From Nitrospira sp. (lineage in GTDB: Bacteria > Nitrospirota > Nitrospiria > Nitrospirales > Nitrospiraceae), in assembly GCA_030653545.1 (NCBI GenBank), contig JAURZE010000026.1, positions 186,001 to 250,000 on the forward strand: a stretch of DNA of 64,000 nucleotides, read 5' to 3'. Below are positions 1,350 through 49,976 of this stretch, piece by piece (the stretch's first letter is position 1; every line of letters begins with the position of its first letter). The notes beneath the pieces were generated by a model. That model was not told the DNA's origin. It made no database searches and saw only the letters and a program-made list of their open reading frames with translations. A program made the translations under genes and the position numbers.

Positions 1350-2246
1350 CTAAGAATGACGGACGGACTGATTGATGCGCCTGACGATCGAATCGACCGG
1401 GATCAAATGACGCGCAAGACCTAACTCCTTGGCAGGTATCCCCATCGCCAGACCAAGGAGCTGGGGCAAGTGGAGAATGGGAAGACTGAGCTGTGCATTC
1501 ACCGCCTGCCCCGCGCGATCCTGATAGATATCCAGGCTCATATGACAGAGCGGGCAGGGCGTTACCATGCAGTCGGCCCCTTGCTCCTTGGCCTCTTTCA
1601 TATTGGCTCCGGACATCGCCATCGCCACCGCTTCCTTTTCAAGAATGATCGGGAACCCGCAGCACTTGGTGCGCCCGGCATAGGCCACCGCCTCCCCGCC
1701 CAACGCACGAATCACCTGCTCGAGAGACGACGGGTTTTCCGGATCGTCAAAACCGAGATCCCAGGAGGGCCGGAGAATATAACAGCCATAGAACGGCGCA
1801 ATGCGCAGCCCCTGCAAAGATGTCACGACCTGCGCGCCAAGCTGGCGCAGCCCGATCTCACGCACGATAATCCACAGCAGATGTTTGACCTGAATCGTCC
1901 CGCGATAGGCGATGCCGTCCGGCTCCAACACACGATTGATTCGATCGAGTAATCCCGGCTCGCTCTTCAATCGCTTGTTCGCCGCCGCCATGACGCCCTG
2001 ACACGTCCCGCAAATGGTCATGATATCGAGACCCAGGCTTTCGGCCTGAGCGAAGTTCCGCGCATTCAACGCCAAGGCGACATCCGGCTCCGCCTCCGTC
2101 ACCACCCCGGCCCCGCAGCAAGACGACGCCGCAAGCTCGACCACGTCAATGCCAAGCCGGCCGACGATCGCCATCGTCGATTGATACAGTTCCGGCGTCG
2201 CACCTTTCGCCGCACAGCCGGGGTATAGCGCAAATCTCAATGCCAT
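1350..2246 (-). CDS. HdrB-like CCG-domain iron-sulfur protein (possible SdhE-type subunit)
   Basis: The 298-residue protein contains two cysteine-rich CCG domains (C-x30ish-CC-x30ish-C-x2-C). The first has YPGC, SCCGAG and CGTC; the second has YGCY, KCCGFP and CPLC. This is the layout of heterodisulfide reductase subunit B and of the SdhE subunit of type E succinate dehydrogenases, in which CCG domains replace the haem b membrane anchor. A succinate dehydrogenase iron-sulfur subunit with type E features lies at 10037-11002, so a functional partnership is plausible. That link is inference; a general Hdr-like electron-transfer role is the alternative. It sits 19 bp after the coiled-coil gene. 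Confidence 0.85.
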   Translation of the reverse strand: MALRFALYPGCAAKGATPELYQSTMAIVGRLGIDVVELAASSCCGAGVVTEAEPDVALALNARNFAQAESLGLDIMTICGTCQGVMAAANKRLKSEPGLLDRINRVLEPDGIAYRGTIQVKHLLWIIVREIGLRQLGAQVVTSLQGLRIAPFYGCYILRPSWDLGFDDPENPSSLEQVIRALGGEAVAYAGRTKCCGFPIILEKEAVAMAMSGANMKEAKEQGADCMVTPCPLCHMSLDIYQDRAGQAVNAQLSLPILHLPQLLGLAMGIPAKELGLARHLIPVDSIVRRINQSVRHS

Positions 2247-2265
2247 CGCAGATCCATGTCCACCC

Positions 2266-2697
2266 TTACTGCAGCTTCGAGCGCAGCCGTTGAAACGACT
2301 GATTCATCTCTTCGATCGCAGAATGCACGCCCGCCCTCATTTCATTCCACTTTGCATCGGTGGCCGACTTGAGTCCATCGAGCTGTTGCTTGACGGCCTC
2401 CTTCTTCACCTCCAGCTCACGAATCGACTTCTGCAGTTCCGTCCTGGCCGAGGCCGAGGCCTTGTCGGCCTTTCCCTGTAGCGCCGCCATCTGCTGCTGG
2501 ATTGACTCGAGCTCTTCCTGAGCCTTCCGCTGAAAGGCCTCTTTCTGTTGAGCCGTATACTGGGCCGTCGCCTCAATCGTCTCACGAGCTTCTTTGGCAA
2601 TCGTGCCGGGTGTCACCGGCTGTTCCCCTGCTTCCACACCCACTGAGATGAGTCCGCCCCATAGACCCAACAAACCGATAATCCATCGGTATTTCAT
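2266..2697 (-). CDS. exported coiled-coil protein of unknown function
   Basis: The 143-residue protein has an N-terminal signal peptide (about residues 1-23, ...GVEAG). The remainder is almost entirely charged heptad-rich alpha-helix (Q/E/K/A-rich, residues 35-140), so a periplasmic coiled coil is likely. There are no catalytic motifs. It is the first gene of the minus-strand trio with the HdrB-like and cupin genes and is divergent from the HDOD gene, so the promoter should lie in 2698-2870. Confidence 0.7.
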   Translation of the reverse strand: MKYRWIIGLLGLWGGLISVGVEAGEQPVTPGTIAKEARETIEATAQYTAQQKEAFQRKAQEELESIQQQMAALQGKADKASASARTELQKSIRELEVKKEAVKQQLDGLKSATDAKWNEMRAGVHSAIEEMNQSFQRLRSKLQ

Positions 2698-2872
2698 AGA
2701 CCTATCTCCCTTGCTCGTCCGAATGAACGCGGAATCTCACCGACAGTATAGTCAGGCCTCCGTGAACTTGTCACGCCGGGCGCCCTCTCGCTCAACTTTT
2801 CCGAGGAACCAACCGACAAAGACACGTCACAAGCTCACACCGTCGACAAACAACAGGAGCGCCAGAACACCA

Positions 2873-3733
2873 ATGGCCCCCGATACTCAAATTTCTGCCG
2901 CCACCGAAAAGCTGGAACAGGCTCTGGTTAAGAAGCTCGAGGCAGGAGAAGTCGAACTCCCGCTCTTGCCTCAAGTGGCCAGCCAAGTCATGGCCCTGGC
3001 CGCCGACGCGACGGCCGATGCCGCCAAGCTGTCATCGCTGATCCATCAAGATCAAGCTTTGGCCGCCCACGTCCTGCGCATTGCCAATTCGCCTGCCTAT
3101 ATGCCGCGCAGCCCGGTCGTCTCGCTCCAGCACGCCGTGGCCATGCTCGGCATCAATCTGCTTTCTGAAATTGCCTTTACGGCCTCGTTGAAGAACGGGG
3201 CATTCCAAGTTCCAGGCCACGAAGATCACGTGAAGCTGCTCTGGCGGCACTCACTGGCCAGCGGCGCCTTTGGCAAAGAGGTCGCCCGCATGCGGCGGGT
3301 CAATGTCGAAACCGCGTACCTCTGTGGACTCTTGCACGGAATCGGCAAGCCGGTCGTGCTTCGGACGGTGGCGAATCTTGCCAAAGACCTCAAACTCTCG
3401 GCCGATAGAGCCGTGATGCAGCAGCTACTCGACGGCTACCACACCCGCGTCGGCACTGTGATTGCCGACAAATGGGGGCTGCCCAAACAAGTGGCCGAAG
3501 CCATTGCGTGCTACCAGGAATATGATCACGCCACTTCCTTCAGGCAGGACTGCCTGCTCACCTGCGTCGCAGACCGTCTGGCGACACACCTCCTTGAACC
3601 GGAGACGCTCCCCGAAGAAGAATTGCGCGAGCATCCGGTCTTCGCCGATCTCAACCTCTACCCCAACGATATCGACCAGCTGCTGGCCGGTAAAGAGAAG
3701 GCGTTGGCCTTGGTCAATGCAATGAACCTATGA
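2873..3733 (+). CDS. HDOD domain signalling protein
   Basis: The 286-residue protein is mostly one HDOD domain (about residues 20-220): ELPLLPQVASQVMAL, the I-H-Q-D-Q-A-L-A segment, and a downstream L-C-G-L-L-H-G-I-G-K helix. HDOD proteins are HD-fold regulators that usually lack full phosphodiesterase activity. I chose the ATG at 2873 because AGGAG lies 13 bases upstream and the upstream in-frame sequence is low-complexity and weakly coding; ATG 2723 is an alternative. Its stop overlaps the start of the next gene by 4 bp (ATGA), so translation is probably coupled to the transhydrogenase. Confidence 0.85.
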   Translation: MAPDTQISAATEKLEQALVKKLEAGEVELPLLPQVASQVMALAADATADAAKLSSLIHQDQALAAHVLRIANSPAYMPRSPVVSLQHAVAMLGINLLSEIAFTASLKNGAFQVPGHEDHVKLLWRHSLASGAFGKEVARMRRVNVETAYLCGLLHGIGKPVVLRTVANLAKDLKLSADRAVMQQLLDGYHTRVGTVIADKWGLPKQVAEAIACYQEYDHATSFRQDCLLTCVADRLATHLLEPETLPEEELREHPVFADLNLYPNDIDQLLAGKEKALALVNAMNL

Positions 3734-5145
3734 GCGCACCAATAGCCTTCGACATCGTCATCATCGGAGCCGGCCCCGCCGGGCAAAAAGCCGCCATTCA
3801 AGGCGCGAAATCCGGCAAGCGCGTGGCGCTGCTGGAGCGCGAACGGGGTATCGGCGGCAGCTGCGTCTACCGCGGCACCATTCCCAGCAAGACCTTGCGG
3901 GAGAGCGCCCTGCACCTCGACCGCCTGCGCCGAGCCAGCGCGGCGTTTGAATTCAGCTTGAAGCCGGACGCGGAAATCTCGTCGCTGCTCAGCCGCCTGG
4001 AAGAAGTCGTCCAGACGCACGACACCTATATGAGCAAACAACTGCGGCGGAACGGCATCTCGCTGTTTCACGGCCGCGCGCGTTTTCTCAATGACCGAAC
4101 CATAGAAATGCAAACCGTGGACGGCGCCCGTCAACACTTTACGGCCGACCATTTCGTCATCGCCACCGGTTCGCGCCCGCGCAATCCTCAAGAGATCCCC
4201 GTCGATCATGAACATATCCTCGACAGCGACTCCCTCTTGTCGATGATCTACCTCCCGCGGTCTCTGGCGATTATTGGCGGAGGCGTCATCGGGTGCGAGT
4301 ACGCCTCGATCTTCGCCCTCCTCGGCGTTGAAGTGACCCTGATCGACCGCGCCAAAGCGCCGCTGCAATTCATGGATCAGGAACTCGTGGCGCAGTTCGT
4401 CGCCAGTTTTGAGCAGCACGGCGGACACTACCTCGGCGGACAATCGATTCAAAGTGTGCAATGGGATGGCGCCACCCATGTGGTGACGCTGCTTGGCGAT
4501 GGCCAGATCATCAAGAGCGAGAAAATGCTCGTGGCGCTGGGCAGACAGGCGAATGTGGAAGATCTCAACCTGGGCGCCGCCGGGCTTGAAGTGAATGGGA
4601 AGGGCAGCCTCTCGGTGAACCAATTCTGCCAGACGACCGCGCCACACATCTACGCCGTCGGCGACATGGTCGGTGCCCCGGCCCTCGCGTCAAAAGCAAT
4701 GGAGCAGGGCCGCCGCGCAGTACGCCATGCCCTCAACCTCCCCATCGGCGATGCCGCATCGACCATTCCGATTGGTGTCTATACGATTCCTGAAATGGCC
4801 AGTATCGGCCTGGATGAAAAGATGGCCAGCGAACGATTTCGGAATCCCCTCGTCGGCCGGGCCAAGTTCGAAGAAGTCGCCCGCGCACAAATCTCGGGAG
4901 CCGGTCACGGGCTCCTGAAAATGATCGCCGATCCCAGCGGCGAACGATTGCTGGGGATTCAGGTCGTCGGAGATTCCGCCACAGAACTGGTGCACATTGG
5001 CCAGATGGCCCTGCAGCAAGGCGCGCTGGTCGAATCCTTTATCGACAACGTCTTCAACTTCCCCACCTACGCCGAAGCCTATCGCGTTGCCGCGCTGGAT
5101 ATCCTCGGCCAGGTCGCCAAACGCCAAACCGCAGCAGCGGCATAG
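3730..5145 (+). CDS. sthA: soluble pyridine nucleotide transhydrogenase
   Basis: This 471-residue flavoprotein has the FAD-binding G-A-G-P-A-G signature at residues 13-18, a NAD-binding G-G-G-V-I-G-C-E segment near 180, and the C-terminal pyridine nucleotide-disulfide oxidoreductase dimerisation domain. The redox motif reads GGSCVYRGTIPSK: the second cysteine of the usual CxxxxC pair is replaced, as in SthA (CxxxxT) and unlike lipoamide dehydrogenase. The predicted reaction is reversible hydride transfer between NADH and NADP+ in the cytoplasm. It is translationally coupled to the HDOD gene. Confidence 0.85.
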   Translation: MSAPIAFDIVIIGAGPAGQKAAIQGAKSGKRVALLERERGIGGSCVYRGTIPSKTLRESALHLDRLRRASAAFEFSLKPDAEISSLLSRLEEVVQTHDTYMSKQLRRNGISLFHGRARFLNDRTIEMQTVDGARQHFTADHFVIATGSRPRNPQEIPVDHEHILDSDSLLSMIYLPRSLAIIGGGVIGCEYASIFALLGVEVTLIDRAKAPLQFMDQELVAQFVASFEQHGGHYLGGQSIQSVQWDGATHVVTLLGDGQIIKSEKMLVALGRQANVEDLNLGAAGLEVNGKGSLSVNQFCQTTAPHIYAVGDMVGAPALASKAMEQGRRAVRHALNLPIGDAASTIPIGVYTIPEMASIGLDEKMASERFRNPLVGRAKFEEVARAQISGAGHGLLKMIADPSGERLLGIQVVGDSATELVHIGQMALQQGALVESFIDNVFNFPTYAEAYRVAALDILGQVAKRQTAAAA

Positions 5146-5233
5146 TCTCCCCGCCCTTTGACCCCGCGCGTCTTTTTCGTATAGGCTGCTCCTGACGATC
5201 GACACTCCCGTCGATGCCGGGTAGGGACAGTCT

Positions 5234-6931
5234 ATGAATCGATCCGACCGCCGCCGACAGGAATCCCGCCAGGCCAAGACCGGCTCCGTGTCCGACAGTT
5301 TCGCCGTTTATACGCTACTCGACCAAGGGAAACGCCATCACCAGGCTGGCCAATTGGCCGAGGCTGAGCGAAACTATCAACTGGCCCTGAATATGGTGCC
5401 GGGCCACCCTGAAGCGCTCCACCTCTTAGGATTGCTGGCCTACCGCGTCGGCAGCTACGAGCAAGCCATCGAGCTCATCACCCACGCCATCGAGGGCACA
5501 CCCAATTCCCCTTTGTACTGGTTCAACCTGGGCGTCGTCACCCAGCGTGCGGGAAAATCCGAAGAGGCCATCCGTGCCTATGAGCGGGCCATCACCCTCA
5601 ATCCCAAATACGTCGACGCCCTCATCAATCTCGGCAACGTCCTGAAAGACCAGCATCGCCTTGTCGCCGCAGTCGAAACCTATCGCAAAGCCCTGACCCT
5701 GAACCCGGCCCACGCCGACACCCACAACAACCTCGGCGTCGCACTCAAAGAGCAGAATGCCCTCCGGGATGCGATCGTCTCCTATCGCGAAGCCATCCGG
5801 CTGAAACCCGCGCACTTCGAAGCCTGGAACAATCTCGGCCTGGCGCTGATGGAAACCGGCGCAATCGATGACGCCCTCGCCTCATTCCAGCAGGCCTTGA
5901 CCATCGTGCCGGATTCATCGAAGACACTCTACAACCTGGGAATTGCGGCGATGTGGAACGGCGACCATGCCGGCGCCATGGCCCGCTTCTCCCAAGTGGC
6001 TAAGGCGAAGCACGATCACAACGGTCCGATTCAAGAGACCACCCTCTTCCGGTCGCGGCTGAAGCATGACGCCGAACAAACCCGACTGCTCATCGAGCGG
6101 GGCCGCCTCGATGCCTCGCACCGGAGTTATGTCGATGCGCTGGAGCGATTGGAAATTACGCTGGCCGCGACCTTCCCGACGCGCAACCGATGTCCCGTCG
6201 ATCCGGCTGCGCTCGCGGCGATTGCGCCGTCCTTCAATCAATTTCTCTATCGAGCCCCCTGCGAACGGCTGGTGGATGGCGCATTGAATCCGCAACTGGA
6301 TGTCCGGGCGATCGAAGCGCGCTACCTGGGGCAGCTGCCAGAAGTCACATTCATCGATCAACTGCTCAAGCCGGAGGCCCTGGCAGCCCTACGCACCTTT
6401 TGCTTGGAATCCACAATCTGGAAAAAGGACTACGAGAACGGCTACCTCGGGGCGTTTCTCGGCGATGGATTCGCCACACCCCTCCTGTTGCAAATTGCCG
6501 AAGAACTCCGTCGCGCGCTTCCCGGCATCTTCAAAGATCATCGACTGACCCAGGCCTGGGCCTTCAAGCAGGATAGCGCCAGACGCGGCCTCTCCATCCA
6601 TGCCGACGCCGCAGCCGTCAATGTCAACTTTTGGATTACACCGGATGAGGCGAACCTGGATCCTGAGAAAGGCGGGCTCGTGGTGTACAGCAAAGAAGCG
6701 CCGGCCGATTGGAACTTCGCCGCCTATAACAGCGAGCAGAACAAACCGAAGATTCTCGAATGGCTCACGCAAGCCGGCGCGCAGACGATCCGGGTGCCCT
6801 ATCGCGCCAACCGTGCGGTGGTCTTCAATTCAGATTTGTTTCATGAAACCGACGACGTGACCTTCCGTGACGACTACCTCAGCCGACGCATCAACATCAC
6901 GCTGCTTTACGGCTATCGACATCAGGCCTAA
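5234..6931 (+). CDS. TPR protein with C-terminal 2-oxoglutarate/Fe(II) oxygenase-like domain
   Basis: The 565-residue protein has about six TPR units (residues ~20-245, e.g. AWNNLGLAL, TLYNLGIAA), a linker, and a C-terminal domain (about 360-565) with the pattern of a double-stranded beta-helix dioxygenase. That pattern is H-x-D in LSIHADAA, a distal H in SDLFHETD, and a following RRINIT arginine that could bind 2-oxoglutarate. TPR-oxygenase fusions often hydroxylate proteins or modify glycans. The HxD...H...R assignment is mine from pattern reading. The gene is monocistronic and its 3' end overlaps the convergent downstream gene by 35 bp. Confidence 0.7.
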   Translation: MNRSDRRRQESRQAKTGSVSDSFAVYTLLDQGKRHHQAGQLAEAERNYQLALNMVPGHPEALHLLGLLAYRVGSYEQAIELITHAIEGTPNSPLYWFNLGVVTQRAGKSEEAIRAYERAITLNPKYVDALINLGNVLKDQHRLVAAVETYRKALTLNPAHADTHNNLGVALKEQNALRDAIVSYREAIRLKPAHFEAWNNLGLALMETGAIDDALASFQQALTIVPDSSKTLYNLGIAAMWNGDHAGAMARFSQVAKAKHDHNGPIQETTLFRSRLKHDAEQTRLLIERGRLDASHRSYVDALERLEITLAATFPTRNRCPVDPAALAAIAPSFNQFLYRAPCERLVDGALNPQLDVRAIEARYLGQLPEVTFIDQLLKPEALAALRTFCLESTIWKKDYENGYLGAFLGDGFATPLLLQIAEELRRALPGIFKDHRLTQAWAFKQDSARRGLSIHADAAAVNVNFWITPDEANLDPEKGGLVVYSKEAPADWNFAAYNSEQNKPKILEWLTQAGAQTIRVPYRANRAVVFNSDLFHETDDVTFRDDYLSRRINITLLYGYRHQA

Positions 6932-40956: not shown

Positions 40957-41002
40957 GGAGCGGATGGTCCGATCCCCCTTGCTGCTTAAGGGAGGTTGTT
41001 CA

Positions 41003-42019
41003 ATGGGTACACAGCACGTAGTGACGATGTTGCCGGGAGAGGGAACCGGTCCGGAAATTTGCGAAGCGGTCCGGCTGGTGATCGATGCGAGCGGCGTCAA
41101 TATCAAATGGGAGTATGAAGAGATCGGACTGGACTGTTTAGAGAAGCACGGCACGTTGTTGCCTGACAAGACGGTCCAAGCCATCGCCAGAAACAAGATC
41201 GCGTTGAAAGGCCCCACGACCACGCCGATCGGGACAGGCCACAAGAGCGCGAACGTGACACTCCGAAAGGTGTTCGATCTCTATGCGAATGTGCGGCCGG
41301 CCAAGTTGATTCCCGTGCTCAAGCGGCCCTGGGACAAAATCGACATCCTCAACTTCCGTGAGAACACCGAAGATTGCTACGCGGCCATCGAGCATATGGT
41401 GTCAGACGAAGTGGCGCAATGTTTGAAGGTTATCACCTGGCCTGGCTCCTATCGCATCGCCGAGTTTGCCTTCAAGTGGGCAAAAGCCAATGGGCGCAAG
41501 AAGATCTACTGCGTTCATAAGGCTAACATCATGAAGATGACCGACGGTCTCTTTCTCGATGCCTTTAGAGAGGTCGCCAAGAAATATCCGGATATCGAGT
41601 CCGGCGACATCATCGTGGACAATTGCTGCATGCAGCTCGTGAGAAATCCTGCGCAATTCGATTGCTTGGTGCTCCCGAATCTGTACGGGGACATCCTGAC
41701 GGATCTCTGCGCAGGATTGGTCGGCGGCTTGGGATTCGCGCCGGGTGCCAACGTGGGCGACAACTGCGCGATCTTCGAGGCGGTCCACGGCTCTGCGCCG
41801 AAGTATGCGGGGATGAAGAAGGTGAATCCGTCGGCCGTGCTGGTCTCCGGAATCATGATGCTCCGCTGGATGAAGGAAGAAGCGGCAGCCGATCGGATCA
41901 CAAAGGCGATGTTTGCCGTTCTCGACGAGCGGAAGCACGTGACGTACGACGTCGGCGGGACGGCAACGACAGACGAGTATGCGCAAGCCATCGTGGATAA
42001 GATGCACGCGAAGGCCTGA
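41003..42019 (+). CDS. icd: NAD-type isocitrate dehydrogenase
   Basis: The 338-residue protein belongs to the isocitrate/isopropylmalate dehydrogenase family: GEGTGPEI near the start, the substrate-binding RENTEDCYAAIEH, the catalytic metal Asp in DNCCMQLVRNP and LYGDILTDL, and GSAPKYAG. The AIEH after NTED and the mitochondrial-like length suggest isocitrate rather than isopropylmalate. It catalyses isocitrate to 2-oxoglutarate. GGGAGG lies before the ATG. It is followed 38 bp later by a small gene resembling a C-terminal domain of long isocitrate dehydrogenases. Confidence 0.87.
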   Translation: MGTQHVVTMLPGEGTGPEICEAVRLVIDASGVNIKWEYEEIGLDCLEKHGTLLPDKTVQAIARNKIALKGPTTTPIGTGHKSANVTLRKVFDLYANVRPAKLIPVLKRPWDKIDILNFRENTEDCYAAIEHMVSDEVAQCLKVITWPGSYRIAEFAFKWAKANGRKKIYCVHKANIMKMTDGLFLDAFREVAKKYPDIESGDIIVDNCCMQLVRNPAQFDCLVLPNLYGDILTDLCAGLVGGLGFAPGANVGDNCAIFEAVHGSAPKYAGMKKVNPSAVLVSGIMMLRWMKEEAAADRITKAMFAVLDERKHVTYDVGGTATTDEYAQAIVDKMHAKA

Positions 42020-42057
42020 GTTCGAGATTTTTGGCTGAATGAACAAGGAGAACACCC

Positions 42058-42408
42058 ATGCCTACATGCACTGAAATTGCGAAAGCGACGAAGAAGAAGC
42101 GTGAGATCAAATTAGTCGGCATCGATATGTACATCATCACCGAGAAGGGGATCCCGAAGTTCGACGACATCGGGCCGTTCAAATGTGAATTTATTTCGAA
42201 CCGTGGCACGAAGGTCTGGCCCGGCTTCGTCAGTCCCGATCTGCTGCAGGTCAACTGGTATCGCTGCAGGTTTATGGCGACCAAAGACGTGCAAGACGCG
42301 GACGTGAACACCTTCTTGGACGCCTTGACGAAAAAGGGCTGGTGGTGGTCTGCCGCGCAGAAGTTATGGAACTACGACGGCGAAGCCGGATTCAGCAAGG
42401 CGTACTAG
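42058..42408 (+). CDS. stand-alone isocitrate dehydrogenase C-terminal-domain-like protein
   Basis: The 116-residue protein reads KFISNRG-type motifs familiar from the C-terminal extension of Thermus and rickettsial isocitrate dehydrogenases: EFISNRGTKVWPG, NWYRCRFM and LWNYDGEAGFSKA. That extension is normally fused to the catalytic domain. Here it is a separate gene directly after icd, so it may assemble with it as a subunit or a regulator. The resemblance is recalled from family knowledge, not tested. Lysine-rich N-terminus, no signal peptide. Confidence 0.65.
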   Translation: MPTCTEIAKATKKKREIKLVGIDMYIITEKGIPKFDDIGPFKCEFISNRGTKVWPGFVSPDLLQVNWYRCRFMATKDVQDADVNTFLDALTKKGWWWSAAQKLWNYDGEAGFSKAY

Positions 42409-45002: not shown

Positions 45003-48000
45003 TTACCGTCCACTCATCGATGTCCGCGCGACGCTTCCGTTGTCGCTCCCGCGCTCCGCCTTTTGGCTGGACGGAACTTGCGGGGCCAACGGAAGGACCC
45101 GCTGGTCACCGGTCGGAAGGACCTTGAAGAGTCCCCATTGCCCGGCGTTCGCAAAGCCCGGACGTTGGTTCTTCCACATGTAGTCGCCGACGATCTTATT
45201 CGGACCGCCTGCTCCTCCCGTCAGATAGGCGTTGATGACTTCTGAACCGCCGAACTCCATGGTGCTGACCTGGTCGGCACCCTGCATGTACGGCTCATGC
45301 GGCCATTCGTGTCCGTCCACGGTGAACAACTGCACCTGCTCGCTGAATGCGCCGAGCACGTGCACCGCCACCGGATCGCCGACATGCGCCTGCAACAGCG
45401 GCGTCGAGGGCGAGTCGCCGGTCTTCACACAACTGAAGACCTCGGACACGTCACAGCCCTTTTCCATCCGCCACGCGGTCGGTTCAGACCGGTAGTTGAC
45501 CGCCGTGATACCGGCGACCTGTTGGATATAGGGCATGAAGCTGACACCCACGATGTTGTCCTCGTCCTGGAACATCAACGAGAAATCGCGGTAGTTCTTC
45601 CGATTGTCGTTCCCGGGGATCGTCCGATCCACGATCACGTCGGCGCGCCAGCTGCTCTTCATCGTAATATCGTTGCCCGTCACCGGATCGCGGTAGCGCG
45701 ATCCCTTCGGACCGACGATGATCGACCCGAACAAGCCGTTCCGTGGATTCTCCACCACGTTCCCCCAGTCTTGAATGAGGGCGGCCAGTTCTCCGTACTC
45801 CGGATGCGCGAAGTACGTGTAGGTCTTGCTCTGACCCGGAGCGATCGTTTGATCGCCGGGGTTGTTGCCGACATTGGCGCCGAACGAATCTTTCGGATCG
45901 AACGCCATCATATCGACGTGGAATCCGGCCCGTTCTTTGGCCATTTCGTTCTTCAGATTGATCTTCACACAATCCCCGACGTTCACGTGCAGCGTCAGCG
46001 GGCTCGGCCGCAATTCACCGGCCTTGACCCGTCCACGATCCTCGTCGAGCACGTACATCTTGCCCTGCTGATTTTCGAAGACCATCTTGCGTTCGAGATC
46101 GACTTCCATCGTACCCGGCGCACCCTCGTGATACCGGATGACTTGATCGATCGCCGACACGTTGAAGGACTTCACGGGCGCATCCGCCGGGCAGACCGAC
46201 GGCGCAGACTTCTGGATTTCTTCACGGCTCGGCAAGGGTTTCAGATCCCCTTGCAGTTCGTCGAAGACCCGGAAGATACCCCAGCTGCCTTCCGCGAAGT
46301 GGGACGCGCGGCCGCTATAGTAGAGATAGTCGCCGGCCTGCTTCTGCGGTCCGCCCGCGGCAGGAATCGCCGGGTCGTACCGCTCTCCGATCACCAGATG
46401 CACCGTACTGCGCGGCATCGCCATGGTGGCGTACCGCTCCATCGGGAACCAGTGCCCGGTCACGTGCCAGGTGTGCACTTCGTTGGCCGATCCGACCAGC
46501 GCCCGAACCAGGATCGGATCACCGAGATAGCTCCGCAACAACGGCGTGCCAGGATCTCCGTGAATACCGGACACAAACAGCTTCGACGGATCCGGATTGT
46601 TGGCCAGGCGCACACTCAACGGCTCCACACGCATGCTGTAGCCGCTGCCCGTCGTGGCTTCGCCGCCGTTCAGGAACGTCATCGCCGACTTGTTGATGCG
46701 CTCCGGGAACTGGTGCGACGGAGGCCCGTCGACCGTGACCGCTCCCATGCGCGCCTGCGGGTTGTCGGTCATGATCAACTCAGCCGACCGCGCGTTGCTG
46801 TCCATGATATGCATCATGACTTCGCGGAAACTGCCCCGGATATGGGCCGAGACCGGCTCCAGGGTGTGAATGTCCGCGATAGGACCGCTCCGGAGTTCCT
46901 TTCCGGTGTACGGATCATGATAGGTCGATCGCGGCGGTTCGGTGATGAAGGCTGAGAACAGACCATGTCCCCAGGTATCGGTGCCGAACACGTGATCGTG
47001 CCAATACACCGTTCCGAGATCCGCATCGACATACCAGCGCTCGCGGATGAACTCCACGCTCGCAATGTCGTTCTTCTTGTGCGCGTACTTCAATGGCGCA
47101 TCGAAGGTGATGGTATTGCCCTTGATGTCCTTGATCCGCACGATCTCGAAATACTTCGGATCATCCATGCCCACACCGAGTTCGGTATTGACATGGAACT
47201 TGGACGAATTCTTCACCGTGATACTGCGTGAACCGGCTTTCGTATCCGCCGTCAGAGTCGTGTTGCCGGGCAGGGGCATTCCCTTGTCCGGTTGCGGATC
47301 CTCCAACATCGTGAAAGCCCGCAGCGACATGTCGTACGAGAATCCGATGGTCGGACCGTCGGACGCGCTCGTGTCGAACTGGAAGAAATGCGGATGGAGA
47401 TTGATCTTGTTGGCCCATCCCGTCCGCGCATCGTCCGGGATTTCGTTCTTGAAGATCACGTCCACGCAATCGTGCACGTTCCCGCGAATCACCAAGGGTA
47501 CTTGCTTCTTGGGATTCTTGCGGACTTCCTCTTCCTCTTCATGCAGCACATAGATCATGCCGATCGGATCCACGACCGCGGCGGTTTTCGGGGTCGCCGG
47601 CTTGAGGGTAATCGGCAAGGTGATCGAATGGATATTGAAATACTTTCTCGGCGCATTTTCCGGACAGAGGCTCCAGGGCCCCTGCGCACCCGGCACGGGC
47701 GGCTCCGTGCTTCTGGTGCCGTCTTCACGGACACGGAACGGCTCCAACCATGGCGCGCCGCCGTGATTGGGCGCAAACGGAGGACGCTTCCCGAGGTGCG
47801 GACGCAACCAGGGGAATGCCAGCTTGCCCGTCTGCGGATCGAACGTGATCGCCGGACGCTGCAGCGGAGTCGGCGAGACATAATCCGCCCACTTGTGCGG
47901 GGTTTCCGGCTCGTTCATCGCCTTCGTGCCGTCCCACTTCCAGTTCACCACCGTCGCATCGTGCGCTTGCGCCTGCTTGACCTGGTCTTCGGTCTTGCCC

Positions 48001-49757
48001 GGCAACCCCTGCGGCGGGAGCATGTACTCAACCCAATCCTTGATCGACACCTTCACGGGACTGGCCTTCCAATCCGTCTTGTCCTTGGTGATCTCGTACT
48101 TCTTCCCGCCGTACCAATCGACGGTGGTCCCGACCAGCTTGTCGGAGCTGACCGCCAACTTGATCTTGCCCTTGCGATCCGGCAGCTCAACGAGCGGCTT
48201 CATCACATCGGTCTGGAATCCGGTCGATTGCAGGGTGTTGTACACACGCCAGAATCCCCACATGCCGGTCACATAGTGCTGAGGAATGTGGCAATGGAAC
48301 ACGAACTCACCGGCCAATGCCTGCAAACCGCCCGAGCCGCCTTCGATCACTTCATCGTAGATCTCGGACGGACCGATAGATTGCACATCCAACCGGTCTG
48401 ACGTGTCGCTGATCGGCGGGAACTTCACGGGACCGCTCTTCGACAGCGTCGGATCGAGCTTGCTCGTGCCGGGCTGTCTGGCCCAGCGGATCGATCCGCC
48501 GTGCAAGTGGTGCGAATGCACGATCTCGGACCCTCCGACCATGCGGAACTTGGCCGGATCGCCAAGATAGGAACGGGGAATCGTGGTGGCCGGATCGCCG
48601 AATGTATAGGACCCGTAGCCCTGCGACTCGTCGGCAAATCCCACTAGGTGCGCCTGAATTTCCAACCGCTCGCCGTGCGGTTCGCTGCGGAAATTGAGCA
48701 ATCGCGCGGCCGGACGATAGGTATCCGTATGGGCATCGCGCTGCGGCAACATGTCGCCCTTGCGATCCAGGAGACGGAACGTCTCGTCGCCCGCCTCATG
48801 ATAGATAATGACGAATTCGCGGAAGTCTGATCCCTTCTCCACATCGATCATGGCCTCCCAGCCGCTCTTCATCTCTTCTCCCGTAAACGGGCTGAGGAAC
48901 CGTGATCCGCGCGGCTCGACGACGATCGATCCCAACAAGCCCAGTGAATACTGATCGCGGCTTGCATGGCTATGGAAGGCACGGCCGCCTTCCTGCAGAT
49001 CGATGGGAAGGTACCACTCGAAGTCACCGGTTTTCCCCGCCGGAACCAGCGCCTCGGGGTTCATGGCATTCGCCGGCTTCCCCGTGCTGGCCACGAGCAT
49101 TTGGGAGCCGTTGATGATCATGTTCGTCGGCTCGTTCTCGATCTGATTGCGCAATGTGACCCGCAGACAATCGCCCTGGTTCACCCGGATCACGAGCGGC
49201 TGAATCAGATCGCCCTGCAACCCGTTCGAAATGGCGCCGCCGGCAAACGTCGGATCTTCGCTGTCCCGCGCTGCCTTGTTCTTTGCTTCCTCCTCACGAA
49301 TACCCGCTACATTCTCGGTCAACGCATACATGTAGCCCGGATAAAAATCGCCGAACCGGTTCACGGTGATCTCGACATTCATCGCCGTGAGATCATACGC
49401 GCGGACCGGCGCCGTCACCGGGCAGCGAGCGCCCTGCGTGACTTGCACCTTATCCGGATCCTCCGCCACCAGCAGCACACCCTGCTGCATCGCATGGGCC
49501 CCGGCCCCTTGGAACGGCCCCTTACTCTTGACCTCCCGCTCGATCTGCTCGATCGCCTTCGACATCTTGTCCTGCAGCACCGGACCGGCCTGCGCATGCA
49601 CCGGCGTCGCCACATCGGCATTGTGATCGACGGCGATATGCCCATCATGCGACATGACCGCGCCTGCAGGCATGGTCCAGGCCAACTCAAGACAGGTCGT
49701 CAGTCCCAACACTCCCACTCGCACCCACTTCATTGATACACCCATAGATACACCCAT
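45003..49757 (-). CDS. giant multidomain multicopper oxidase
   Basis: The ~1584-residue exported protein is a chain of about six cupredoxin-like domains. Numbered from the upstream ATG at 49778 (subtract 7 for the chosen start), copper-site motifs are FHSH (269-271), HSHHLHG (421-426), FHCHIPQHYVTGM (494-506), LHPHFFQ (794-800), YWHDHVFG (925-932) and HTWHVTGH (1102-1109). Later domains have lost ligands. The first domain lacks the usual HWHG. Activity could be oxidation of metals such as Mn or Fe, or of phenols. The chosen ATG 49757 follows GGAGG by 8 bases. It heads an operon of four exported proteins. Confidence 0.88.
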   Translation of the reverse strand: MGVSMGVSMKWVRVGVLGLTTCLELAWTMPAGAVMSHDGHIAVDHNADVATPVHAQAGPVLQDKMSKAIEQIEREVKSKGPFQGAGAHAMQQGVLLVAEDPDKVQVTQGARCPVTAPVRAYDLTAMNVEITVNRFGDFYPGYMYALTENVAGIREEEAKNKAARDSEDPTFAGGAISNGLQGDLIQPLVIRVNQGDCLRVTLRNQIENEPTNMIINGSQMLVASTGKPANAMNPEALVPAGKTGDFEWYLPIDLQEGGRAFHSHASRDQYSLGLLGSIVVEPRGSRFLSPFTGEEMKSGWEAMIDVEKGSDFREFVIIYHEAGDETFRLLDRKGDMLPQRDAHTDTYRPAARLLNFRSEPHGERLEIQAHLVGFADESQGYGSYTFGDPATTIPRSYLGDPAKFRMVGGSEIVHSHHLHGGSIRWARQPGTSKLDPTLSKSGPVKFPPISDTSDRLDVQSIGPSEIYDEVIEGGSGGLQALAGEFVFHCHIPQHYVTGMWGFWRVYNTLQSTGFQTDVMKPLVELPDRKGKIKLAVSSDKLVGTTVDWYGGKKYEITKDKTDWKASPVKVSIKDWVEYMLPPQGLPGKTEDQVKQAQAHDATVVNWKWDGTKAMNEPETPHKWADYVSPTPLQRPAITFDPQTGKLAFPWLRPHLGKRPPFAPNHGGAPWLEPFRVREDGTRSTEPPVPGAQGPWSLCPENAPRKYFNIHSITLPITLKPATPKTAAVVDPIGMIYVLHEEEEEVRKNPKKQVPLVIRGNVHDCVDVIFKNEIPDDARTGWANKINLHPHFFQFDTSASDGPTIGFSYDMSLRAFTMLEDPQPDKGMPLPGNTTLTADTKAGSRSITVKNSSKFHVNTELGVGMDDPKYFEIVRIKDIKGNTITFDAPLKYAHKKNDIASVEFIRERWYVDADLGTVYWHDHVFGTDTWGHGLFSAFITEPPRSTYHDPYTGKELRSGPIADIHTLEPVSAHIRGSFREVMMHIMDSNARSAELIMTDNPQARMGAVTVDGPPSHQFPERINKSAMTFLNGGEATTGSGYSMRVEPLSVRLANNPDPSKLFVSGIHGDPGTPLLRSYLGDPILVRALVGSANEVHTWHVTGHWFPMERYATMAMPRSTVHLVIGERYDPAIPAAGGPQKQAGDYLYYSGRASHFAEGSWGIFRVFDELQGDLKPLPSREEIQKSAPSVCPADAPVKSFNVSAIDQVIRYHEGAPGTMEVDLERKMVFENQQGKMYVLDEDRGRVKAGELRPSPLTLHVNVGDCVKINLKNEMAKERAGFHVDMMAFDPKDSFGANVGNNPGDQTIAPGQSKTYTYFAHPEYGELAALIQDWGNVVENPRNGLFGSIIVGPKGSRYRDPVTGNDITMKSSWRADVIVDRTIPGNDNRKNYRDFSLMFQDEDNIVGVSFMPYIQQVAGITAVNYRSEPTAWRMEKGCDVSEVFSCVKTGDSPSTPLLQAHVGDPVAVHVLGAFSEQVQLFTVDGHEWPHEPYMQGADQVSTMEFGGSEVINAYLTGGAGGPNKIVGDYMWKNQRPGFANAGQWGLFKVLPTGDQRVLPLAPQVPSSQKAERGSDNGSVARTSMSGR

Positions 49758-49976
49758 ACGTCCAGCCTCCTCCATCAAACAAACCGTCTAGGCACCGTTC
49801 ACTTCTACCGACCGCGTAAACCCGACCCTATCGAATTCGAAGTCTGGTGAAGGCCAACTTTCATCGGAGGGATCGTCAGGAGGCCGGTCCTTTCTTTCCC
49901 GCTCCTCCACCAGACAGCTCTCAATTTCATCCACATAGGAGGTTGACTGCGTATACTTATGTGGACAGGGCTTAGA

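Follow-up and report, generated by a model that had tools for sequence, protein, structure and literature searches.

Isocitrate dehydrogenases (IDHs) of subfamily IV are defined by a chain of 480–500 residues with a unique C-terminal region of ~100 residues on the same chain (PMC3521221). In the Thermus thermophilus enzyme (TtIDH), the C1 clasp, spanning residues 148–160, is reduced, and the C-terminal domain forms a larger clasp-like structure over it (PMC3521221). Neither sequence nor structure is reported to reveal what the variable regions separating the IDH subfamilies do, including the C-terminal clasp of the Thermus/Rickettsia type (PMC3521221). Here, we analysed a 64,000-nt stretch of DNA (hereafter, the window) from a 3.94 Mb genome of Nitrospira sp., in which the catalytic core and the C-terminal domain of a similar enzyme are encoded by separate, adjacent genes.

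The upstream gene, icd (window positions 41003–42019, + strand, from ATG to stop), encodes an IDH core of 338 aa without a C-terminal domain of its own (PF00180; E 7.4e-101, 338 bits in a profile search), and its top solved relative is the Thermus enzyme, 2d1c (E 2e-103). A probable ribosome-binding site, GGGAGGT (40990–40996, +), was read from the sequence 6 nt ahead of the icd start codon (41003). After a spacer of 38 nt, on the same strand and in a different frame, follows an ORF of 116 aa (42058–42408, +, ATG to stop), itself preceded by a ribosome-binding site, AAGGAG (42045–42050, +), located 7 nt before its ATG. The distance of 38 bp reported in the earlier note is thus correct, and, given that position 41003 is the start of icd, the feature described there comprises both genes. 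A promoter/terminator scan found no terminator between the two genes on the + strand and no promoter around the pair. The genome encodes only two PF00180 proteins, Icd and a LeuB-like protein. The surrounding region is flanked by two ORFs for MpsC/DUF2294 proteins (PF10057; 42523–43074 and 38147–38638), and a PF10057 gene recurs near the icd-small gene pair in six other genomes, so that it may be functionally linked to the pair. Further downstream, on the − strand, lies a very large ORF of 1591 aa (45003–49778), which appears multicopper-oxidase-like by eye.

The 116 aa protein matches the profile of the bacterial IDH C-terminal domain (Isocitrate_DH_C_bact, PF18324) with 54.1 bits (E 1.9e-14; profile positions 3–107 of 110), against a curated cut-off of 25 bits. 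It also aligns with residues 363–479 of the NCBIfam long-IDH model PRK09222 and, in a sequence search, with residues 385–492 of 2d1c (E 9.7e-10), the C-terminal part of which is its only significant solved relative at this level. An AlphaFold2 model of the small protein, built from an alignment of 32 homologues (pLDDT 87.1, pTM 0.77), retrieved 2d1c_A in a Foldseek search (E 1.2e-7) and no other match below 0.001, and VIA-align superposed the model on residues 372–493 of 2d1c with a Z score of 14.8 and 31% identity over 112 residues. All other VIA-align matches, to ferredoxin-like, ACT and PII-like domains, had Z ≤ 6.5, which falls in the range marked by the tool as common background; a regulatory reading drawn from the ACT and PII-like folds, with Z of 5–6, was accordingly rejected. 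Because 2d1c tops the matches of both proteins, icd and the small ORF together span one Thermus chain, and the small ORF encodes, in detached form, the C-terminal domain (C2 clasp) of an IDH resembling subfamily IV. The earlier note had proposed that this domain is encoded as a separate gene, citing the motifs SNRGTKVWPG, YRCRFM and YDGEAGFSKA; all three are present in the protein, and the assignment, which greatly exceeds a chance resemblance, is borne out by the profile search, with which the predicted fold agrees.

Icd residues 131–141 (HMVSDEVAQCL; 41393–41425, +) align with TtIDH residues 149–159 and constitute a minimal two-strand C1 clasp segment of 11 residues, the same length as in TtIDH and all fused forms. 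The 11-residue segment is present in all 183 domain-bearing cores (107 with a fused domain, 44 + 32 with a separate one; two of the 183 fell outside the search pattern and were read by eye). By contrast, the domain-less IDHs of the sister clade, 17 out of 17, carry a 20-residue insertion exactly in this segment, bringing it to 31 residues. Judged from these alignments, there is a strong, albeit not conclusive, case that the domain and the enlarged clasp behave as alternatives in this clade. The insertion probably arose once, so that the reciprocity represents one evolutionary event rather than 17. Moreover, the minimal clasp alone does not require the small protein, because the IDHs of subfamily III and the short NAD-IDHs 6lky and 6m3s combine it with neither a C2 domain nor an insertion.

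Taking these observations together with the genomic distribution described below, we consider it likely that the adjacent Icd depends on the small protein as an obligate subunit, which would restore the C2 clasp in trans in an Icd2-Small2 enzyme predicted to be NADP-dependent. In this model, the usual dimer of two Icd cores, with its minimal C1 clasp, would be capped at that clasp by two small proteins, in the position that the C-terminal domain occupies in the single-chain enzyme of Thermus, and the small proteins would thereby lock the Icd dimer into the complete enzyme. We thus infer a physical complex of 2:2 stoichiometry that is needed for stability or activity and is specific for NADP. 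The coenzyme prediction derives from the discriminating segment HGSAPKYAGMKKVNP (41786–41830, +), with its K-Y-...-V pattern: among the 43 cores encoded upstream of a small gene, 42 have KY..V and one has KY..I at this site. Following the rule for K344/Y345/V351 of EcIDH, we take K-Y-...-V at the adenosine 2′-phosphate site to signify NADP use, which predicts that Icd is NADP-dependent.

The two genes are strictly linked across the Nitrospirota. Stand-alone PF18324 genes were identified in 52 of the 395 genomes sampled (intact in 51, interrupted by an internal stop in the other), in addition to one fused gene. Within the sample, Icd cores with 81–100% identity are confined to the 51 genomes with an intact small gene and occur in all of them, the next matches being domain-less IDHs at 50–56%. 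In each of the 51, the small gene lies directly downstream of icd according to the coordinates, as confirmed in the fetched split loci, and none of the 395 genomes contains only one intact partner of the pair. In 20 genomes of the same genus lacking the small gene, icd is absent as well, leaving only a LeuB-like paralogue at ~40% identity. The decayed small gene, found in a member of the same genus (G175; L088 5215–5454), is a case of joint loss, with no icd detected within 11 kb around it or, at the threshold used, genome-wide. A monomeric IDH (PF03971) is also encoded in the genome containing the window (G000, C24:287431–289632) and in all tested genomes of this genus; in Nitrospira, the split IDH is therefore a second isozyme beside the monomeric type. 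No PF03971 gene was found in G125 or in the two tested genomes of family f22 (G010 and G019), and the split enzyme is probably the main IDH of these three organisms.

Beyond the Nitrospirota, both fused and split architectures came to light when 84,980 species genomes were scanned and each locus was read. Fused forms occur in Thermus, Bacteroidota, Bacillota, Chloroflexota, Verrucomicrobiota, Armatimonadota, archaea and others, whereas split pairs with icd upstream of the small gene were found in Nitrospira and Bacillota (L165 and L168), with a further pair in another Bacillota genome (G901). In the Armatimonadota, the order is reversed, with the small gene upstream of icd (L157), and a search of 291 genomes of this phylum and the fetched loci yielded 31 more such loci, besides fused forms. 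In six armatimonadotal genomes, a fused long IDH coexists with a stand-alone domain, the gene for which adjoins a separate icd core. Other loci in this phylum (L284, L287–L295) carry a third class of fused IDH that combines NAD-type residues (HGSAPDIAG) with a short-loop domain. Furthermore, a Ktedonobacterales contig (L102) encodes a tandem of two distinct fused long IDHs (1864–3339 and 4268–5746), one from each major fused clade. No relatives of the pair were found in viral contigs.

In the phylogeny of the cores, the architectures sort into clades: 100/100 for the pairs with icd first, for those with the small gene first and for the domain-less IDHs, 99/95 for fused type C and 99/93 for fused type A (Thermus-type); fused type B (Bacteroidota-type) forms one clade except for one long-branched row. 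Both split clades group with the domain-less clade (97/96), and fused type C joins this group (93/87) to the exclusion of fused types A and B. The tree of the domains shows the same main division, with the split and type C domains on one side and the Thermus and Bacteroidota fused types on the other, and this division matches a structural mark, namely the length of the loop before ISNRG, which is 20–22 residues in the split and type C domains versus 26–29 in types A and B. On the most parsimonious reading of these trees, the long gene would have split a single time in the distant past, the order of the two genes would have changed, and the domain-less IDHs would have lost the domain. The deep branching is not secure, however, as two alternatives withstood AU tests on a thinned data set, one joining the icd-first cores to the fused clade of the Thermus type (p = 0.33), the other joining them to all fused forms (p = 0.52).

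The existence of fused relatives with the parts in the same order, along with the ancient fission suggested by parsimony in this clade, could be taken to mean that the locus is merely a recently broken long IDH gene, disrupted by a frameshift, a stop or an assembly error, with a non-functional tail. This explanation has next to no probability. The small gene has its own start codon and ribosome-binding site, the N-terminus (MPTxTE...) and C-terminus (SKAY) of its product are conserved, and between Nitrospira species its dN/dS ranges from 0.013 to 0.056 where computable, similar to that of icd (0.019–0.064), so that the small gene is under purifying selection. Together with the presence of the split form in many species and the reversed order in the Armatimonadota, this rules out recent breakage, and the split cores do not nest within the Thermus-type or Bacteroidota-type fused clades. 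An ancient fission, on the other hand, may have occurred and would be compatible with an obligate subunit. It is also highly improbable that the small protein functions independently of Icd and is co-transcribed with it by historical accident: although an MpsC-domain gene recurs beside the pair as well, co-presence and co-loss across the 395 genomes are perfect, the pairing is kept in two gene orders, and natural fusions exist.

The earlier note had left the choice between a two-subunit enzyme and a regulator, and these are indeed the alternatives to be weighed. A reversible regulator would bind Icd conditionally and switch its activity or direction, oxidative versus reductive. Such a role would fit the production of the domain as a separate protein despite the existence of fused forms, and human IDH3 provides a precedent for the regulation of an IDH by a partner subunit (PMC5241874, PMC5816668). 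The ACT and PII-like regulatory domains in the list of fold matches also point this way, but their scores lie within the stated background of the tool and are too weak to count for or against a regulatory role. Against regulation, the intact small gene is never found without icd, the fused relatives carry the domain 1:1 in the same chain, and there is no extra ligand-binding domain. We therefore regard a regulator as unlikely and favour an obligate structural subunit because of the adjacency in two gene orders, the perfect co-occurrence and the clasp reciprocity.

As a tentative and rather doubtful extension, the clasp might be an exchangeable separate subunit that licenses the IDH, such that Icd would lack activity or stability on its own and IDH activity would be set by the amount of small protein, for instance, in favour of reductive carboxylation in CO2-fixing Nitrospira. 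In the relevant passage on N. moscoviensis, which does not state which IDH is meant, IDH is among the most abundant proteins of the TCA cycle (PMC8407350), and a role of the split IDH in the reductive TCA cycle of Nitrospira is plausible. The two-gene form and the sister enzymes with the clasp insertion make the role of the extra clasp testable by adding back a separate protein. In practical terms, the small ORF in Nitrospira and relatives should be annotated as a probable IDH subunit, and a recombinant or modelled Nitrospira IDH derived from icd alone is probably incomplete.

Several described IDH types resemble the split enzyme in part. Monomeric IDHs are single PF03971 chains of ~740 aa, whereas Icd matches PF00180. 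The NAD-IDHs of subfamily III, the mitochondrial type that includes human IDH3, share the minimal clasp and a multi-subunit organization. However, the partner subunits of IDH3 are full-length IDH paralogues rather than a detached C2 domain, and the only other PF00180 gene in the genome analysed here is LeuB-like. The short domain-less IDHs of Nitrospirota (L174–L189 group and L208) have sister cores with 50–56% identity and the same NADP-type K-Y residues, but no C2 domain was found in their genomes, and the 20-residue C1 clasp insertion is present instead. Fused type C IDHs of Armatimonadota and Myxococcota (L284, L287–L295, L154) possess the same short-loop domain and a core that is sister to the clade containing the split forms; they differ in being single chains, with open frames of ~470–565 aa, and in the NAD-type HGSAPDIAG of the armatimonadotal sequences. 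Finally, the NADP-IDH of T. thermophilus (2d1c, subfamily IV) has the same core family, minimal clasp, C-terminal fold and K-Y coenzyme residues, but consists of one chain of ~496 aa with a core from a different clade, and in the domain of that clade the loop is longer (26–29 versus 20–22 residues) and includes an additional helix. In the open PMC literature searched, we found neither a description of the split IDH in Nitrospira nor a natural two-gene IDH with the C2 clasp in trans. Overall, the families of the catalytic core and of the domain are already known, and their arrangement in two genes, with a proposed clasp in trans, appears to represent a novel form of subfamily IV: with a core of 338 aa and a domain of 116 aa encoded in separate ORFs, it departs from the single chain by which this subfamily is defined, but it probably works like a subfamily IV enzyme.
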